Shown: in pieces, positions 222 through 30,482 of the stretch
Layout of the letters: each line of letters starts with the position of its first letter
How positions within the stretch are numbered: the stretch's first letter is position 1
Origin: Candidatus Ancillula glyptotermitis
GTDB taxonomy: Bacteria; Actinomycetota; Actinomycetes; Actinomycetales; Bifidobacteriaceae
Assembly: GCA_031268675.1 (NCBI GenBank)
Contig: JAIRWY010000048.1
Span: forward strand, 1-64,000
Direction: 5' to 3'
Length of the DNA stretch: 64,000 nt
Program-made: the position numbers and the translations under genes
Notes under the pieces: generated by a model
Databases searched by the model: none
Seen by the model: the letters and a program-made list of their open reading frames with translations, nothing else
What the model was told of the DNA's origin: nothing

Positions 222-1678
222 CTATTTAGTTTAGCAAGTTTATGTGCTTTGCAATTTTTTACTAAATCGACGGATAAATAACAAAGAACACATAATAATG
301 TGATATACAATGGGAAGAATATTCTAACATCTGAGGCATAAATTGATGGAGAAAATGAAACCAAAAAAGTTGCTATAAAACCAGAAAATGCGATATAAAG
401 TATAAATAAAGTTCTGAATGTAAAGCCATAAAGTAAAAAGATAGACGCAACAAAACAGAAAATTAGAAATAAGAAGAATATATGTGGCATAAGTGTTTTT
501 GGATTGCTAAAAGAAGTATTAGGAATAAATTGATCCTGCATTTGCCCTAGCATTTGACTTATTTGGGGTCTAAAGAAGTCAGAAGTATTATAAAAGTATT
601 TAGACATGATTAAAGGAACAAAGTTAAGTAAAAACAAAACTACTTTTTTATTTGTCGAAATGCTTATGCGAATGCTCAAAATTAACAATACCGAAATAAT
701 TGCTAAGTAGACTAAATCACTATCAAATAAAAAATGCTTACAGATGTATAAGAACCCTAAGTTAACTTTTGAAAAAATGCTTATATTTGCATAAGCTGGA
801 AAGTTACTTGCAATTTCAGCAAATCTGCGATGAACATTTCCTGGACAAATAAGCACATTCATTATACCTAACAATGAAATGACTAATCCAAGAACAATAT
901 ATAAATTAAATTGTTTAGCTTTTATTTTAATAAACCACACCAAATTAAAAAGAAAGAATATCATAAATGCTAAAACACTCATTTGCTCAGAGTTACAAGC
1001 AAAAATTAAAGATAACAAATACAAAATCATTTTACTTATTTTTATTCTTGTTGTTTCCGTCTTAGCTAATGTGGAATATATACTAGTTCTAATCCCTGAA
1101 AGTGCATACAGTAATAAGGAAGATGTCCAAAGATAATTAATAACCATTGCATAAATTCCTGCTGAAGAATATATTGCAGATGGAATAAAAAGACAAAAGA
1201 ATATGGCAACTAGAGACATTTGCCAAAACTCTATAAATCCAAAACACTTTCGTATAGAATGAACCATAAGTACAGCTAAAGCAATAGTGATTATTCTCCA
1301 AATAAGTAAATGTTCTGTCATAAAGTATCCAAAAAATTCTACTACAAATCTTGATGACCAGTTAGTATATTTCCAAACGGCATATGCAACTGGTCCAGTA
1401 AAATTTCCAGAAACTACTTGATCGTGAAATACTGCCTGCCAGTCTCCAGAACGAACATCTTGAAAATACGTTAACAAATAGAAAAATATACCAACACATA
1501 AATAAGGAATTGTTGATGGTTTTTTAATAAAATCTATTATGCGGGTGTATGCTTTTGTAAAAGTTACTTCATTTGAAACAGAAGTTGGAGAATTTAGGGG
1601 GGGGGGGTAATGCACGCGCAAAACAGGATCAGCACTCATTTGCGCATCCCCAATTGTATCTCCATTTTTACAACCCAT
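194..1678 (-). CDS. Multipass membrane protein of unknown function, possibly envelope or glycan related; contains an 11-nt poly-C tract (PPP) near the N-terminus
   Basis: ORF with many hydrophobic segments; start reassigned from 1696 to ATG at 1678 because the first six codons overlap the -10 box. Confidence 0.7.
   Translation of the reverse strand: MGCKNGDTIGDAQMSADPVLRVHYPPPLNSPTSVSNEVTFTKAYTRIIDFIKKPSTIPYLCVGIFFYLLTYFQDVRSGDWQAVFHDQVVSGNFTGPVAYAVWKYTNWSSRFVVEFFGYFMTEHLLIWRIITIALAVLMVHSIRKCFGFIEFWQMSLVAIFFCLFIPSAIYSSAGIYAMVINYLWTSSLLLYALSGIRTSIYSTLAKTETTRIKISKMILYLLSLIFACNSEQMSVLAFMIFFLFNLVWFIKIKAKQFNLYIVLGLVISLLGIMNVLICPGNVHRRFAEIASNFPAYANISIFSKVNLGFLYICKHFLFDSDLVYLAIISVLLILSIRISISTNKKVVLFLLNFVPLIMSKYFYNTSDFFRPQISQMLGQMQDQFIPNTSFSNPKTLMPHIFFLFLIFCFVASIFLLYGFTFRTLFILYIAFSGFIATFLVSFSPSIYASDVRIFFPLYITLLCVLCYLSVDLVKNCKAHKLAKLNSRHCISSVV
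1597..1607 (-). repeat. Homopolymer tract, 11 G on + (11 C on the coding strand), inside the membrane protein ORF
   Basis: aatttaGGGGGGGGGGGtaatgc. Confidence 0.95.
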
Positions 1679-11999: not shown

Positions 12000-12512
12000 A
12001 TGTCAAAAGTTTATAATGGCGAAAGTGGACACGAAGAACCAGTTGTTGCAATTTTCATGGGGTCAAAATCAGACTTGGGAATTATGCAGGCAGCTGCTGA
12101 TATACTCAAAGAGTTTCAAATTCCGCACACTATTGAAGTTAAGTCTGCGCACAGAATGCCGTTTGCTATGCTAGATGCTGCAAAAACAGCAGAAGAAAAG
12201 GGCTACAAAGTGATTATTGCAGGTGCAGGAGGTGCTGCCCATTTGCCTGGAATGCTTGCATCTGCGACGACTCTTCCAGTAATTGGGGTTCCAGTTTCGC
12301 TTAAAAACTTGTCTGGACTAGACTCGCTTTTATCAATTGTGCAGATGCCATCTGGTGTTCCAGTTGCAACAGTTTCTATTGACGGCGCGCGCAATGCAGG
12401 ACTATTAGCAGCCCGCATTCTTGCAGTATCTGACTCAAGGATATTTAAGAAGTTGCAGGAGTTTTCAAGTGCTCTTTATGAAGTTGCTGATGCACAGAAT
12501 GAAGAACTATAA
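12000..12512 (+). CDS. purE: 5-(carboxyamino)imidazole ribonucleotide mutase
   Basis: [34 protein letters not shown]. Confidence 0.93.
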
Positions 12513-12701
12513 TATCAACTACATTTTAATGCAGATTTAATTAGAATTATAGGGCATAAACAGGTATTGGTGATTACAACATAAAAATATAAAGAAGAAA
12601 AGTAACAAAAAAAAAGAGACAAAATAGTTATGTTTTGTATATTTTTTTGTTGCTTTGCAAAATATTACTCAGGCTTTGTACTCATTCGTTAGATTTATGG
12701 C

Positions 12702-12731
12702 TTGACAAAGTGGGGGGGGGGGTGCTATAAT
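12702..12731 (+). promoter_or_regulatory. Promoter with a poly-G tract in the spacer: TTGACA (12702-12707)-18 bp-TATAAT (12726-12731)
   Basis: TTGACAAAGTGGGGGGGGGGGTGCTATAATGG; G11 at 12712-12722. Confidence 0.85.
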
Positions 12732-12775
12732 GGTGGTAGTTGTTAATTTATAGTATATTAAGGAGATAGTAAGTT

Positions 12776-14230
12776 ATGAGTCGGAAGTTAAAAGTGTTTT
12801 CACGTCTGGTGGTGTGTTTTTCTGCAATCAGTTTAAGTGTTTTTGGGGTTATTCCATCGTCTTTTTCAGTTCAAAAAGCAAGTGCTGGTGAAATTCCAAC
12901 TTATGATTTTAACTACACATATGCCTTTGATCATAACACTCTTAATCTTCTTCCAAATCATCAATTCATTGCTCCTGATGTATGCGTACATACTGCAGAT
13001 GTTGTTGCTGGACGATATGCGGAATTCATGAAAGCAGGAAATTATGTGCTAGAAGTAAGAAATAAAGAAAACGGAAATATTCATTCTACTTTTGAAAATA
13101 CTCTTACTAACGATAGTTTCGCAGATTATGGAACTTCAACAGATCTTCTCTTAAAAAATAACTACTTAGGTCAAGACTCTGGAATCAATTTAATATGTCA
13201 TGGTTATTGTGGAGATGGTGTAATTGAGTTTAATCTTATAAATTTTCCAGTAAATTTCTTCGCGCTAGATACGAAATATACAGTATCTCTTAAACAGACA
13301 GTTGGATTAACTCAAAAGGTAATATTCAATGGTGAATTAGAAGTAAAATCTGAAAATCCTGCGCCTGTTGATGGTGTACTTCATGTTGTAAATGGAATAA
13401 CTAGGGTTGTAGATTTAAGTAGTGTATTTGGCGAGGGTAGATCAGGAGATGAAATTATCTCCCAAAATCCTGAAATATTAAGTGTTGGAACTCATGCTAC
13501 TACTGCTGATGTTCAAATTACTACTCACAGACCAGGTAGGACGGTTCTTGTTGATAAAACTAATGAGAATAAGCAGCTGAATGTTGTTGTTTTACCAGCA
13601 TTTTCAAAGCCAGTTGCTGATTTAACGAAGGTTGTTAGTATAACTAATCCTGCGCCGAATTCTCAAGATGCTCAATTTCATGATGCAATTAAATTCCTCT
13701 TTGAGCATGGAGTTACAACTGGAGTTGAAGATAAAGACGGCAGTGTTTATTACTATGGCGATAACAACTTAACGCGTGGAGAATTTGCGGCATATTTATA
13801 CCGTTTTAGTGGTTCTCCTGTAGTTACAAATGAGCAACTAGCAAATAACTTTGCAGATGTAAAAGAAGGCGATCAATTTGCGAAAGAGATTGCATGGTTA
13901 AAAGCACATGCTATTTCAACTGGAGATAAGAACAACTTCTATCCAAAACTGCCTATTAAGCGTGGTGAAATTGCTAAATTTGTTGCACTTGCTTTTGCTA
14001 ATGCTGATGAAGTTGAAGAGGCAAAGGGTTATGAGCGGTTTTTGGACTTGGATGCGAATGCTGAGTTTACAAAATACATCAAGTTTTTAGGTTATCGGGA
14101 AATATCATCAGGTGATTCATCAGGTTTTGGTACTTCACCTTATGCGTATTATTATCCTGACTTCTTTATCAGTAGAGGTCAGATCGCTAAGTTTTTATAT
14201 GAGGCTAATTTGAAACTATTTGTGAACTAA
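12776..14230 (+). CDS. Secreted SLH-like (S-layer homology) domain surface protein
   Basis: Signal peptide; repeats such as FHDAIKFLFEHGVTTGV..LTRGEFAAYLYR, FAKEIAWLKAHAISTG..PIKRGEIAKFVALAF, YIKFLGYREISSG..ISRGQIAKFLYEA. Confidence 0.85.
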   Translation: MSRKLKVFSRLVVCFSAISLSVFGVIPSSFSVQKASAGEIPTYDFNYTYAFDHNTLNLLPNHQFIAPDVCVHTADVVAGRYAEFMKAGNYVLEVRNKENGNIHSTFENTLTNDSFADYGTSTDLLLKNNYLGQDSGINLICHGYCGDGVIEFNLINFPVNFFALDTKYTVSLKQTVGLTQKVIFNGELEVKSENPAPVDGVLHVVNGITRVVDLSSVFGEGRSGDEIISQNPEILSVGTHATTADVQITTHRPGRTVLVDKTNENKQLNVVVLPAFSKPVADLTKVVSITNPAPNSQDAQFHDAIKFLFEHGVTTGVEDKDGSVYYYGDNNLTRGEFAAYLYRFSGSPVVTNEQLANNFADVKEGDQFAKEIAWLKAHAISTGDKNNFYPKLPIKRGEIAKFVALAFANADEVEEAKGYERFLDLDANAEFTKYIKFLGYREISSGDSSGFGTSPYAYYYPDFFISRGQIAKFLYEANLKLFVN

Positions 14231-14231
14231 T

Positions 14232-15512
14232 ATGAGAATAAAGCAACTTTTTGGTAATTTATACCTTCAGGTAATCTTTGCAGTTATTTTGGGGGTCTTG
14301 GTAGGAATATTTATTCCGTCATTTGGTGAAAAATGCTTACCTTTGGGGTCGGTTTTTATATTTTTAATCAAGATAGTAATTGTTCCAATTATATTTTGTT
14401 GTATAACTCACGGTGTTGCCAGTATAGGTAACTTAAAGTCATTGGGGAAAATTGGAATTAAGGCAATTATATATTTTGAAGTTTTGACAACTATTGCTTT
14501 AATTATTGGTTTAGTAGTTGTTGATGGATTGAAGCCTGGATCTGGAATGAACATTGATCCTGATAAGTTAGATAAGAATTTGGTTGAATCATATACACAG
14601 TCATCCGTACAATCGCATAATAGTATTTTGGGCATAATTCAAACAATCTTCCCAAAAACATTTTTTGAAAGCTTTTTTTCGGGAAATTTACTACATACAC
14701 TAGCAATAGGGCTTTTGTTTGGGGTTGCAATTTTGAAGTTGCATAATCCACGCCATATAGAATCACTAGTAAATGGATTGAATGTTATGACTGAAATGTT
14801 TTTTAGCATTATGAATATTGTGATGAGGTTTGCTCCATTTGGTGTATTTGGTGCAATTGCATACACTATTTCATCATTTGGTTCATCATCTTTAATTTAT
14901 CTGTTGAAAATGATGGTATGTGTTTATTTAACATCAATTTTATTTATTCTAGTTTGTTTGGGACTCATTTTGAGATTCTGTGGAGTTAATATCTTCAAGT
15001 TTCTTAGATTTATAGCAACTGAAATAATTCTTGTACTTGGAACAAGTTCATCTGAGGTTGCAATTCCATCTATTATTTCAAAATTTTCAAGATCTGGGGT
15101 TGACCCCTCAATTGTTCGATTGGTGATTCCGATGGGATATAGTTTTAATTTAGATGGGACATGCATATATTTAACGAGTGCAATACTATTTATATCTCAA
15201 AGCATGAATATTGATCTAACCTTTGGTAATAAAATACTTATCCTTGTATTACTACTATTGACATCAAAAGGTGCAGCTGCAGTGTCTGGTGGTGGATTTA
15301 TAACATTAGCAGCAACTCTTTCCTCTTTCAGTTTGATTCCAGTTGTCGGCATAACAATTATTCTAGGTGTTGACAGATTTATGTCGGAAATTAGGTCTAT
15401 AACCAATATCATAGGAAATTGTGTTGCAACAGTAGTTGTGGCAAAATGGGAGAAAAAGATAGATATGGAAGAGTTCAACAAGGCATTAAATCGCAAAAGT
15501 GCTAAATTATAG
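14232..15512 (+). CDS. Dicarboxylate/amino acid:cation (Na+ or H+) symporter family protein
   Basis: SDF-family features: IKIVIVPIIF, GTSSSEVAIPSI, GYSFNLDGTCIYLT. Confidence 0.88.
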   Translation: MRIKQLFGNLYLQVIFAVILGVLVGIFIPSFGEKCLPLGSVFIFLIKIVIVPIIFCCITHGVASIGNLKSLGKIGIKAIIYFEVLTTIALIIGLVVVDGLKPGSGMNIDPDKLDKNLVESYTQSSVQSHNSILGIIQTIFPKTFFESFFSGNLLHTLAIGLLFGVAILKLHNPRHIESLVNGLNVMTEMFFSIMNIVMRFAPFGVFGAIAYTISSFGSSSLIYLLKMMVCVYLTSILFILVCLGLILRFCGVNIFKFLRFIATEIILVLGTSSSEVAIPSIISKFSRSGVDPSIVRLVIPMGYSFNLDGTCIYLTSAILFISQSMNIDLTFGNKILILVLLLLTSKGAAAVSGGGFITLAATLSSFSLIPVVGITIILGVDRFMSEIRSITNIIGNCVATVVVAKWEKKIDMEEFNKALNRKSAKL

Positions 15513-15530
15513 TTCAAGCATAAAGAATAC

Positions 15531-16304
15531 TCAAAACACCTGACAAGTCTTCAAGTCATTCCAAGGGTCAGTTGAGAATGGCAATAACTTGACATCTAGT
15601 GTTTGATTTAATGCATGAAGTTGGTATTTTAGCTTGTGCAGCCACGGATATTCAGATACGAAGTGCGGTATATCAACTATTGCAAAATTGAACTGTTGTA
15701 TAGCGTCTTGCACAGGGTGATGCCTCAGATCAGAAGTTATAAATAAGTCCGCACCCTCACCGTTAAATGCTTGTGCAGCTTCAAGAAAAAACGAATCCCC
15801 ACTACCTCCGATTGCATATGGGCGGTAGATTTTCATACTCATATCGTTTGCACAGACCTTCATTAACGGTGCAGTTTTGGGAACAAGCTTATCCAACTTG
15901 GTTTTGAATTTAATCAAGTAGTCGGATAGTAAGGTGCCCTTTTGTACAGAATCTGCAATTTCCTGTATTGTATCACGAACTCCACCTATCTGGTTGTCCG
16001 CATTTGTATGCATGACATAATGCGATATGTTGTTTTTAATCAATTTGTTGAGTATTCTACCTCGAAAAGTATCTCCTCCAACTAGATGAACACTTCTAAA
16101 AAAGAGTGGATGATGCGTAATCAGTAAGTTTGCCCCACAAGCAATTGCTTCGTCCACAACAGCATCCGTAATATCAACACTCAGTAAAATCGTGGAGATT
16201 TCAGATTGTACATCTCCAACACAAAGACCTGGAAAATCCCAATCCTCAGATAAATTCAGCGGATAGAGTGATTCTAGGTGTTCAATAAGTTTCAGTAGTT
16301 TCAT
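15531..16304 (-). CDS. Nif3-like dinuclear metal centre hexameric protein
   Basis: ANLLITHHPLFFRSV, HTNADNQIGGVRDT, SGDSFF motifs. Confidence 0.88.
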   Translation of the reverse strand: MKLLKLIEHLESLYPLNLSEDWDFPGLCVGDVQSEISTILLSVDITDAVVDEAIACGANLLITHHPLFFRSVHLVGGDTFRGRILNKLIKNNISHYVMHTNADNQIGGVRDTIQEIADSVQKGTLLSDYLIKFKTKLDKLVPKTAPLMKVCANDMSMKIYRPYAIGGSGDSFFLEAAQAFNGEGADLFITSDLRHHPVQDAIQQFNFAIVDIPHFVSEYPWLHKLKYQLHALNQTLDVKLLPFSTDPWNDLKTCQVF

Positions 16305-18464: not shown

Positions 18465-18495
18465 TTGACAAGCAGGGGGGGGGGGGTGATATAAT
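18465..18495 (+). promoter_or_regulatory. Promoter with a poly-G tract in the spacer: TTGACA (18465-18470)-19 bp-TATAAT (18490-18495)
   Basis: TTGACAAGCAGGGGGGGGGGGGTGATATAATGG; G12 at 18475-18486. Confidence 0.85.
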
Positions 18496-18548: not shown

Positions 18549-19787
18549 ATGAGAGAAGTAAATGCTAATTTGTATGTAGTAGGCATCATTGGTGGTGGTT
18601 ATGTGGGATTACCAAATGCTGTTTATTATGCTGAACGCGGAGCTGAAGTAGTTGTTTTTGATACGGACGAGTCAGTTGTTGCTGGAATTAATTCAGGAAT
18701 TTCGCATATTGCTGATGTAGAAAATGAAGTTCTGCTAAAACTAGTGTCTGCAGGGAGAATTCGCGCTACACAAGATTTCACGCAGATCGCAAATTGCCAG
18801 TATATTTTTATAGATGTTCCAACTCCTCTAAAACATGGTGAAAAACAGCCAAGTTATGTATATATAGATATGGTTGCTTCAAGTCTAGCAGAATATCTTC
18901 CAAAAGGTAAAGGTGTAGTAGTTTTTCTTGAGTCTACGGTTGCACCTGGAGATACGTTCAGGTACTTAATACATCCACTTCAAGAAGCTGGATATAAACT
19001 AGATGTAGATGTTTACGTCTGCTTTTTTCCTGAGCGGATTAATCCTGGTGGTAGTTTTGACTTTAGAAGAGTTTCCCGCGTTTTGGGTGGATCTAAATTG
19101 GCAACGCGAAAAGCTAGTCATTTTTTCTCAGCACTGAAAAGTTCACAAGAATTACAACAGGAAATTACCACTGTTTCTAGTATAGAGACAGCTGAATTGA
19201 GCAAGATTTTGGAGAATACTTATCGCTATGTCAACATCGCTCTTATCAACGAGTTTGCTAAAGTTGCTCAAAAGATAGGTGTGGACATTACTGAAGCAAT
19301 TGATGCAGCAGGAACTAAGCCGTATGGATTTCAGAAGTTCTATCCAAACATCAAGATTGGTGGACATTGCATTCCAGTAGATCCATTTTATCTGTATAAT
19401 TCTATGCAGGAACTAGGAATTGAAATGCCACTTCTTAAGGCTGCAAGTTCGGTAAACGACTCGATGCTGAATTTCGGTGTTGAAAAAATAGTTGATGCAC
19501 TAGATAAACCTCTTAAAGTTGCCAATATTGCGTTGATTGGCGCAACTTACAAGAAAAATATTGCTGATGTACGCGAAAGTGCTGCATTTGTACTGAAAAA
19601 TAGATTACAGGAACTTGGTGCAAGCGTTGAGTTGTTTGATCCGCTTATATATCCTAAAACTTGGAAGAATGACTACACAGATTTTGACTTGGTCGTTTTA
19701 CTTGTTGGTCATACTTGCGTGGATATTGATGAGTTGAAGTCTAATTCAAAACTATTTGTTAACTTAGACTTTGATTTGAAAAAGTAG
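18549..19787 (+). CDS. Nucleotide-sugar dehydrogenase (UDP-glucose/UDP-GlcNAc/ManNAc dehydrogenase family)
   Basis: GGGYVGLPNAVYYAERG, FFPERINPG, IKIGGHCIPVDPFYL. Confidence 0.9.
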   Translation: MREVNANLYVVGIIGGGYVGLPNAVYYAERGAEVVVFDTDESVVAGINSGISHIADVENEVLLKLVSAGRIRATQDFTQIANCQYIFIDVPTPLKHGEKQPSYVYIDMVASSLAEYLPKGKGVVVFLESTVAPGDTFRYLIHPLQEAGYKLDVDVYVCFFPERINPGGSFDFRRVSRVLGGSKLATRKASHFFSALKSSQELQQEITTVSSIETAELSKILENTYRYVNIALINEFAKVAQKIGVDITEAIDAAGTKPYGFQKFYPNIKIGGHCIPVDPFYLYNSMQELGIEMPLLKAASSVNDSMLNFGVEKIVDALDKPLKVANIALIGATYKKNIADVRESAAFVLKNRLQELGASVELFDPLIYPKTWKNDYTDFDLVVLLVGHTCVDIDELKSNSKLFVNLDFDLKK

Positions 19788-19839: not shown

Positions 19840-22107
19840 TTGGTAAATAAGTTTCGCCATCGATATGATATCCAAGCTCTAAGAACACTTGGCCTAGTAT
19901 TTGTGGTGATTAATCACTACTTTGAGAGTTCATTGTCTGGCGGTTATATTGGTGTTGATGTATTTTTCGTTATCAGTGGATTTCTAATTACTTCTATGCT
20001 CCTAAATAACCCACCGAAGAAATTGGCTGACTTGGGAAAATTCTGGTCACGGCGTATTCGCAGACTTTTTCCTGCTGCATTCATTTCACTAGCACTTGCT
20101 TTTGTGTTAACTCTAAACTATTCACCAGCAAGTTCTAAGGTTTCTAATTTTAAGCAAATACTTGCATCTTCGCTGTACTTCCAGAATTGGCAGCTCATTT
20201 CAGATGGTCAAGACTACTTTTTGCAAGATAATTCAACTTCTTTTGTCCAGCATTTTTGGAGTTTGTCGGTTGAAGAACAGTTTTATATACTTTGGCCCAT
20301 TCTATTTCTAGTATGTTTCTTCTTGTGTATTAAGACCGTGCTTAAACAGCGTGCATTCTTGGGGGGTATTTTAACCATCTTCCTTATTTCCTTGTCGTAT
20401 TCTATTTACTACACACCACTTCATCATGATCAAGCATATTTCTCCACGTTTACTAGGATCTGGGAGTTGGCAACTGGTGGATTGCTTGCATATTATTTTG
20501 TTATATACTTGCCCAGTATTGCCAAAAGTGGTAATTATCAGAAGAAGTTGACTGTGCGGTTTGCAAAAAATGTTGCACTTCGTTCAGCTTTGGCTGTTTT
20601 TGGGTACATCGGCGTTATATACTGTGCTTTTACTTTTGACAAATCTACACCTGTTCCTGGTCTAATAACGTTGATCCCAATAAGTTTGACTGCACTAGTA
20701 ATTTTCTGCTATACCGATACTCTTGAGGAAAGTGTGAAGGGCAATGAATTCAAGCCTGGACGAGGAGAATATTCTGCACCAATAAGACGGTTGACCTCGC
20801 ATTTTGCATTAGGCAGAATTCTCAATAGGATTATTAGGTTAAAGCCATTGCAGTATTTAGCTAGTATTAGTTATGAGGCTTATTTGCTGCACTTCATTTT
20901 TTATATGGCAGTTTTTTATGTAAAAGACGGTGAGATTTCATTGCATGACAAGATTTCAGCTATTTTGCTTGTATTTATCTGCTCTTCGATACTAAAACAC
21001 CTGATTTCTGATCCTGTACGCTTTAGGCTACATATTTTGAATGGTGGGGGGTTACATATACTTAGAACATATATTTTGGGGGGTTTTACGACCTTGACTG
21101 TTGTTGCGCTGTGCATTACTTCAACTCAGTCAATTTTGAACCATCAGCAATCTTTTGTTCCTCAGCAACCTCAAGCAGAATCTGCATCAACCAAATCTGA
21201 CAATTGTTTTGGTGCTGCTGCAGCAGTCAACGATAAATGTGACTTTATAGGGAATGCTTTAGTTATAGATCCACTTACTGCTAGTGCTGATAGATCAGAT
21301 ATTTATAAGGACAAGTGCGCAAATTCTCCGCCATTTAGCACTAGAATTGTATGCAAATATGGTGAACAAAATACTCCTAAAAAGCGCATTGCACTTGTAG
21401 GTAATTCACATGCTGTTCATTGGCAACCTGCATTTGCTATGTTTCTTGATAATGCAAAATGGGAACTTACTACATACGTAGCTTCAGTATGTTATACGAC
21501 TCTTGGGGTTACGGAACGACTTGAAACTTCTGAAAACACCAACGGTTGTAGAGGATTCAATGAATGGGCGATTTCTGAGATACAGAGGCAGAATTATGAC
21601 CTTGTTGTTGTTTCTGATTTAATCGGGTATAAAACTGTTGTAGATGCAAATGGAAAAGAAGTTGAAGATGGATTAGAAGATGGGTTTACGAAGATGTTTG
21701 AAAAGTTTGCACAATCTGGTGAAAAGATACTAGTTATAAAAGATACTCCGCCGTTTACTCAAAATGTTCCAGATTGTGTAGAGAAAAATTGGGATCCGCA
21801 AAATAAAGAAAAGTTAACAGTATGCCGAGGTAAGAAACGGAGTGCAGATGATTTTGGTGACGCTCCATATAGAGCAGCTGAAAATTTCTCACAAAAGCAA
21901 GATGTTGGCGCACTTATGCATACTGTGGATTTTGACAAGTATATGTGCCATGAAGTCGCAAATAAAAAAACTATATGCGAACCAGTAGTTGGCGGTGTAA
22001 TAGCTCGCTATGATCTAGGTCACATTACAAAAACATTTTCGCAGACATTAAGTGAACCACTTTTTGAAGTTGTAGATAAAATTTTGAATCATAAAGAGAC
22101 TAGTTAG
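19840..22107 (+). CDS. Acyltransferase-3 / SGNH fusion (OatA-like envelope O-acetyltransferase)
   Basis: YDIQALRTLGLVFVVINHYF..GYIGVDVFFVISGFLIT, ~10 TM segments, C-terminal ALVGNSHAVHW SGNH block. Confidence 0.88.
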   Translation: MVNKFRHRYDIQALRTLGLVFVVINHYFESSLSGGYIGVDVFFVISGFLITSMLLNNPPKKLADLGKFWSRRIRRLFPAAFISLALAFVLTLNYSPASSKVSNFKQILASSLYFQNWQLISDGQDYFLQDNSTSFVQHFWSLSVEEQFYILWPILFLVCFFLCIKTVLKQRAFLGGILTIFLISLSYSIYYTPLHHDQAYFSTFTRIWELATGGLLAYYFVIYLPSIAKSGNYQKKLTVRFAKNVALRSALAVFGYIGVIYCAFTFDKSTPVPGLITLIPISLTALVIFCYTDTLEESVKGNEFKPGRGEYSAPIRRLTSHFALGRILNRIIRLKPLQYLASISYEAYLLHFIFYMAVFYVKDGEISLHDKISAILLVFICSSILKHLISDPVRFRLHILNGGGLHILRTYILGGFTTLTVVALCITSTQSILNHQQSFVPQQPQAESASTKSDNCFGAAAAVNDKCDFIGNALVIDPLTASADRSDIYKDKCANSPPFSTRIVCKYGEQNTPKKRIALVGNSHAVHWQPAFAMFLDNAKWELTTYVASVCYTTLGVTERLETSENTNGCRGFNEWAISEIQRQNYDLVVVSDLIGYKTVVDANGKEVEDGLEDGFTKMFEKFAQSGEKILVIKDTPPFTQNVPDCVEKNWDPQNKEKLTVCRGKKRSADDFGDAPYRAAENFSQKQDVGALMHTVDFDKYMCHEVANKKTICEPVVGGVIARYDLGHITKTFSQTLSEPLFEVVDKILNHKETS

Positions 22108-30387: not shown

Positions 30388-30400
30388 GGGGGGGGGGGGG
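30388..30400 (+). repeat. Poly-G tract, 13 G, upstream of the giant surface-protein gene
   Basis: caaaagcGGGGGGGGGGGGGtagttcaATG. Confidence 0.95.
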
Positions 30401-30407
30401 TAGTTCA

Positions 30408-30482
30408 ATGAAAAAACTCTTGATTTTATATATATTTTATGTTATACTAAGAGTGGTGATTTATTGTGCGAAAAATGGATGA
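30408..30482 (+). CDS. Possible 24-aa hydrophobic leader ORF MKKLLILYIFYVILRVVIYCAKNG, overlapping the start of the giant gene out of frame
   Basis: ATG 7 nt after the G13 tract (which could act as an SD); stop lies inside the giant ORF. Confidence 0.25.
   Translation: MKKLLILYIFYVILRVVIYCAKNG
30420..30448 (+). promoter_or_regulatory. Candidate promoter of the giant gene TTGATT-17-TATACT (TGT extended -10)
   Basis: -35 30420-30425, -10 30443-30448. Confidence 0.5.

Follow-up and report, generated by a model that had tools for sequence, protein, structure and literature searches.

A recurrent poly-G promoter architecture in Candidatus Ancillula glyptotermitis and its likely role in surface phase variation

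Does a run of 11 guanines inside the promoter of an SLH-domain protein gene in Candidatus Ancillula glyptotermitis act as a slippage element that switches the gene by changing spacer length? The reported genome comprises 1.80 Mb with 37.92% GC and encodes the bifid-shunt phosphoketolase; the intracellular life of the organism is the authors' inference from relatives (PMC11707648). That lineage paper describes no pili and few secreted glycosyl hydrolases, and mentions neither phase variation nor SLH proteins (PMC11707648). The assembly used here has 1,802,720 bp on 100 contigs, with 37.7-38.2% GC in the 343 kb read, and contains an XFP phosphoketolase gene. The locus lies in a stretch of 64,000 nt, called the window below.

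Anatomy of the promoter and its downstream genes

Bases 12702-12731 read TTGACA AAGT GGGGGGGGGGG TGC TATAAT. The -35 hexamer TTGACA (12702..12707, + strand) combines with the -10 to give a 12/12 promoter match, the only 12-of-12 sigma-70-type match in 12400-15600 (3.2 kb). Between them, AAGT, the G11 tract (12712..12722, + strand), which is the presumed slippage element, and TGC form an 18-nt spacer, with TGC TATAAT constituting an extended -10 (12723..12731, + strand); TG[CA]TATAAT recurs in 24/27 members of the poly-G promoter family described below. A ribosome-binding site, AAGGAG (12760..12765, + strand), precedes the ATG at 12776, so that the open reading frame (ORF) starts 44 nt past the -10, and no notable fold was found in the leader RNA. 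The original prediction, TTGACA-AAGT-G11-TGC-TATAAT with an 18-bp spacer ahead of an SLH gene, held exactly. Four runs of at least nine G occur in the window (12712-12722, 18475-18486, 30388-30400 and 1597-1607), compared to zero expected from 100 dinucleotide shuffles of it.

The encoded protein of 484 aa (12776..14230, + strand) carries an SLH domain (PF00395, E=5e-14) and a signal-like N-terminus. A sodium:dicarboxylate symporter gene (14232..15512, + strand) starts 2 nt after the SLH gene ends; we infer that the two are probably co-transcribed, in which case the symporter would switch alongside. A second poly-G promoter, TTGACA-AGCA-G12-TGA-TATAAT with a 19-nt spacer (18465..18495, + strand), lies ahead of a UDP-sugar dehydrogenase gene (18549..19787, + strand), for which orthologs were sought for promoter comparison and none was found in the three other genomes of the genus. 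The AT3/SGNH acyltransferase gene that follows (19840..22107, + strand) is likely, by inference, to belong to one operon with the dehydrogenase gene. This second, G12 copy, some 26 further copies in the genome and the adjacent symporter were all missing from the original prediction.

A genome-wide promoter family, its targets and other G tracts

Searching the genome for TTGACA-N4-G5..-TATAAT, with the reversed pattern as a control, returned 25 exact copies versus 0 for the control. Inspection of all tracts of eight or more G (about 48 in the genome) yielded 27-28 promoters of one layout, with the common core cTTGACAAGC-G(9-15)-TG[CA]-TATAATaga at about 28 loci; one additional copy, L203, is truncated at a contig end. 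The G run lies on the non-template strand in every family promoter, and no template-strand version was present among all listed tracts of the genome. Except for two bases 5' of the core and a few 3' of it, flanks are weakly conserved, so the DNA around the core is largely unrelated from one copy to the next. Paralogous promoters with 97% downstream identity differ in their tracts (G10 versus G13). Altogether, five within-genome paralog pairs were available, three of them with differing tract lengths, which is too few to test tract hypermutability. In two poly-G promoters (L181:3334-3364 and L215, - strand, tract 860-871), TTCCCA replaces TTGACA; these are perhaps decayed copies.

A first objection is that the tracts are artefacts of sequencing, assembly or binning. 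Several tracts lie near contig ends in an assembly of 100 contigs, which would favor this explanation. Against it, the sites are spread over >20 contigs, including some of 50-87 kb, contamination is 0.74%, and the contig ends fit an N-terminal sequence common to the large-protein family. We rejected an artefact origin because the same hexamers frame each promoter tract on both sides, a pattern that poly-G read ends cannot yield, and consider it all but excluded. Exact G counts may nevertheless be off by one.

The targets are mostly surface-related or surface-modifying, with a few of unknown place. They comprise five SLH proteins, the UDP-sugar dehydrogenase, two ABC ATPases, several proteins of unknown function and large secreted proteins sharing the N-terminus MWLMDKNAYRNSKLAEKNS..., some of which bear beta-helix, leucine-rich or GLUG repeats. 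The two ABC ATPases, with no obvious surface exposure, count against a phase-variation reading. Within this genome, secreted targets could not be told apart by a crude hydrophobicity test (19/23 versus 126/185), and our reading does not rely on it.

Many large surface proteins share a further trait, a C-terminus in which (A/K)xTGV is followed by a hydrophobic stretch and then by basic residues, as seen in the proteins of L196, L204, L206, L208 and window 30466-55860; these ends resemble an LPXTG anchor without the LP.

The genome also contains G tracts in other positions. In a second arrangement, the promoter spacer is fixed at 17 nt and the tract (G10-G14) lies outside it, ending 19-30 nt before the -35. 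Such sites were observed at window 30388-30448, L200:2078-2087 and L210:2265-2278, each before a giant surface-protein gene; the window product spans 8464 aa with SpaA and SdrD_B domains, and those of L200 and L210 exceed 1780 aa. By analogy with other repeats elsewhere, the tract might adjust the promoter region 5' of the -35. A C11 tract (coding strand; window 1597-1607) lies about 25-30 codons into a DUF6056 membrane protein (ORF 194-1696, - strand), for which a promoter at 1713-1685 (- strand) points to an ATG near 1678 as the true start. We infer that this tract is probably a frameshift-type switch. Further G tracts are located about 40 codons into ORFs of 1732, 502 and 1241 aa (L193:919-930, L195:5923-5932 and L208:1991-2001, respectively), and the same inference, again likely, applies to them. 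Lastly, at L192:6593-6611 (- strand), G19 between CCCGGGC and CCCGC abuts a TATAAT without a -35, upstream of a protein of >2190 aa.

Spacer length and the slippage reading

Of 83 ordinary TTGACA/TATAAT promoters in this genome, 53 have 17-nt and 23 have 18-nt spacers. The spacers of 27 poly-G promoters are spread more broadly, with 2, 2, 5, 9, 7, 1 and 1 cases at 15, 16, 17, 18, 19, 20 and 21 nt, respectively. The 17-18-nt share is 76/83 (92%) for ordinary versus 52% for poly-G promoters (Fisher p=2e-5, Levene p=8e-5). This spread was measured across loci, with one allele per locus, and not within one locus; independent drift of tract lengths would produce such a pattern. In a tandem SLH pair on contig C4 with near-identical upstream DNA, one spacer is AGC-G11-TGC and the other ACTAGTGGTGAGGGTGC (followed by TACAAT). 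Both measure exactly 17 nt, one with G11 and one tract-free. The pair provides a natural control, in which the tract-free sister resembles a locked version that may predate or postdate the tract.

Our best reading is a multi-locus slipped-strand promoter switch of the porA/tp0126 kind. We consider it likely because about 28 stereotyped promoters, broad spacers, surface targets, a MutS that was not found and a tract-free sister all point to poly-G spacer phase variation; length variation in the population and an effect on expression are inferred. The sequence criteria for porA/tp0126-type loci are met, namely a homopolymer between the -35 and -10 hexamers, optimal and non-optimal spacings across loci, and surface targets. 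According to this proposal, the variable part of the sigma-70-type promoter would be its G11 tract, and the promoter itself is one of about 28 built on a standard core. Replication slips would add or remove G residues and shift the distance between -35 and -10. Spacers of 17-18 nt (perhaps 19) are predicted to be active, while those of <=15 and >=20 nt would be weak or silent, with these thresholds being inferred. Without MutS, slips would stay uncorrected. Cell lineages would then differ at random in which S-layer-type proteins, large adhesin-like proteins and glycan enzymes they express, with the inferred benefit of surface variation towards the protist host, neighbors or phages. No match to MutS_V was detected in the assembly (positive controls: 11/14 genomes), which is about 82% complete, so this absence is not proof. 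The lineage was reported to lack many mismatch-repair genes, as do Actinomycetales generally (PMC11707648).

Since 18 nt is a common spacing in this genome (23/83 ordinary promoters), the assembled G11 allele at 12702 is likely to be active rather than impaired, with the expression effect being inferred. This qualifies the original prediction that loss of one G would give the optimal 17 bp: 17 nt is the commonest spacing (53/83), but 18 nt is also common. Its expectation that larger changes weaken or silence the promoter remains plausible, but the extended -10 may soften length dependence. Its central proposal, spacer-length phase variation, is supported by the anatomy and the genome-wide evidence, with length change and expression effect both inferred.

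Several points weigh against the switch reading. The evidence comes from a single short assembly with one allele per locus and no population data, the wide spacing among loci could represent fixed differences, and the extended -10 could make the promoters spacing-tolerant. The last point underlies one rival, graded tuning instead of an ON/OFF switch, in which tract length would modulate strength only modestly through the extended -10 and slow evolution would set each locus. In its favor, nearly all poly-G promoters, as well as 66/83 ordinary ones, have TGN ahead of the -10, and activity may extend to each of the most frequent poly-G spacer lengths (17-19 nt). Graded tuning, however, needs no long pure G run, which would vanish if stability were favored; the tract-free C4 sister shows that a stable 17-nt spacer is feasible; and tp0126 and porA depend strongly on spacing. 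We regard this rival as unlikely. Less likely still is a static element, with the G run serving as a regulator binding site or DNA structure whose length is irrelevant. Consistent with it, the core shows strong conservation and its G run never departs from the non-template strand, but otherwise identical cores differ in G count from 9 to 15, and a fixed site would be expected to hold its length and the 17-18-nt spacing of ordinary promoters. The slippage switch remains the preferred reading.

Occurrence elsewhere and comparison with known systems

The poly-G promoter core was found in none of the 188 other family genomes searched; in the full set of 189, including its own, the sole other match contained five G, not a long tract, and came from one genome. 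Likewise, 396 genomes spread over the order contained no such core outside its own genome, and in 40 stretches around poly-G tracts from same-genus and family genomes, no tract occupied a spacer between good hexamers. A single weak candidate, TTAACA-GAAGTA-G15-TATACT, was seen in genome G012 (L233). The family genome G165 (L237-L256) contains 36 tracts of at least nine G, many of them after TTAA, outside promoter spacers; these could conceivably belong to another repeat element.

A scan of species genomes detected the arrangement in at least 111 stretches. Most belong to uncultured Clostridia, Bacilli and Faecalibacterium of the gut, and a few come from Treponema and other bacteria. The highest count elsewhere was 18 copies in one 1.7-Mb genome of an uncultured gut Firmicutes member. 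Genes behind the promoters of this gut set often start like those for lipoproteins or secreted proteins, and here the crude hydrophobicity test did discriminate (71/88 versus 491/1093). In G189 and the Faecalibacterium bins, most copies have one length, G8. Some of the environmental matches are very likely due to chance, and the design probably arose more than once. A bolder reading, to which we incline by a narrow margin, is a genome-wide switchboard of about 28 independently slipping loci whose same design has repeatedly arisen in uncultured gut Firmicutes and gone largely unreported.

Most known cases of promoter slippage concern single loci in pathogens; in the present case, an uncultured relative of bifidobacteria would have about 28 such loci. 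If true, independent slipping of these loci would allow a great number of different surfaces, and a large surface repertoire open to switching would alter the picture of the lineage given in PMC11707648. Its members are regarded as symbionts inside termite-gut protists, where immune escape is not an obvious driver, raising the question of whether the surface is varied for protist recognition, phage avoidance or life between hosts. The occurrence of similar promoters in Clostridia, Bacilli and Faecalibacterium suggests a strategy that is common in the gut and recognizable from sequence.

In the open-access literature searched, with most subscription papers outside this scope, we found no report of a single genome with a standard core at about 28 loci, or of such a core in this lineage. 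The closest precedents each match in part. Neisseria meningitidis porA likewise has poly-G between -35 and -10, and a change of one G alters transcription of the surface protein (PMC3899988; PMC7864442), but it is a single locus of a proteobacterial pathogen, whereas the actinobacterium studied here repeats one core at about 28 loci. Treponema pallidum tp0126 and tpr share poly-G in the promoters of several surface-protein genes, with the tp0126 tract located in the spacer and best output at 17 nt (PMC7864442); there, however, the loci are few, the tpr tracts occupy other promoter positions, and PMC7864442 describes no single repeated core. Bifidobacterium breve, from the same bacterial family, exhibits G-tract slippage in its sortase pili that was measured by deep sequencing, but those tracts act by frameshift within coding sequence, and further G-tracts in promoter spacers are merely mentioned (PMC9187656). 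Mycoplasma hyorhinis Vlp resembles the present system as a surface-protein family with repeat-controlled promoters (cited in PMC3899988). The Vlp promoter repeats are poly-A. They serve one paralog family, unlike the poly-G tracts here, which occur on paralogous and unrelated genes alike. Within the literature searched, the kind of switch is known, while its scale and host are new.
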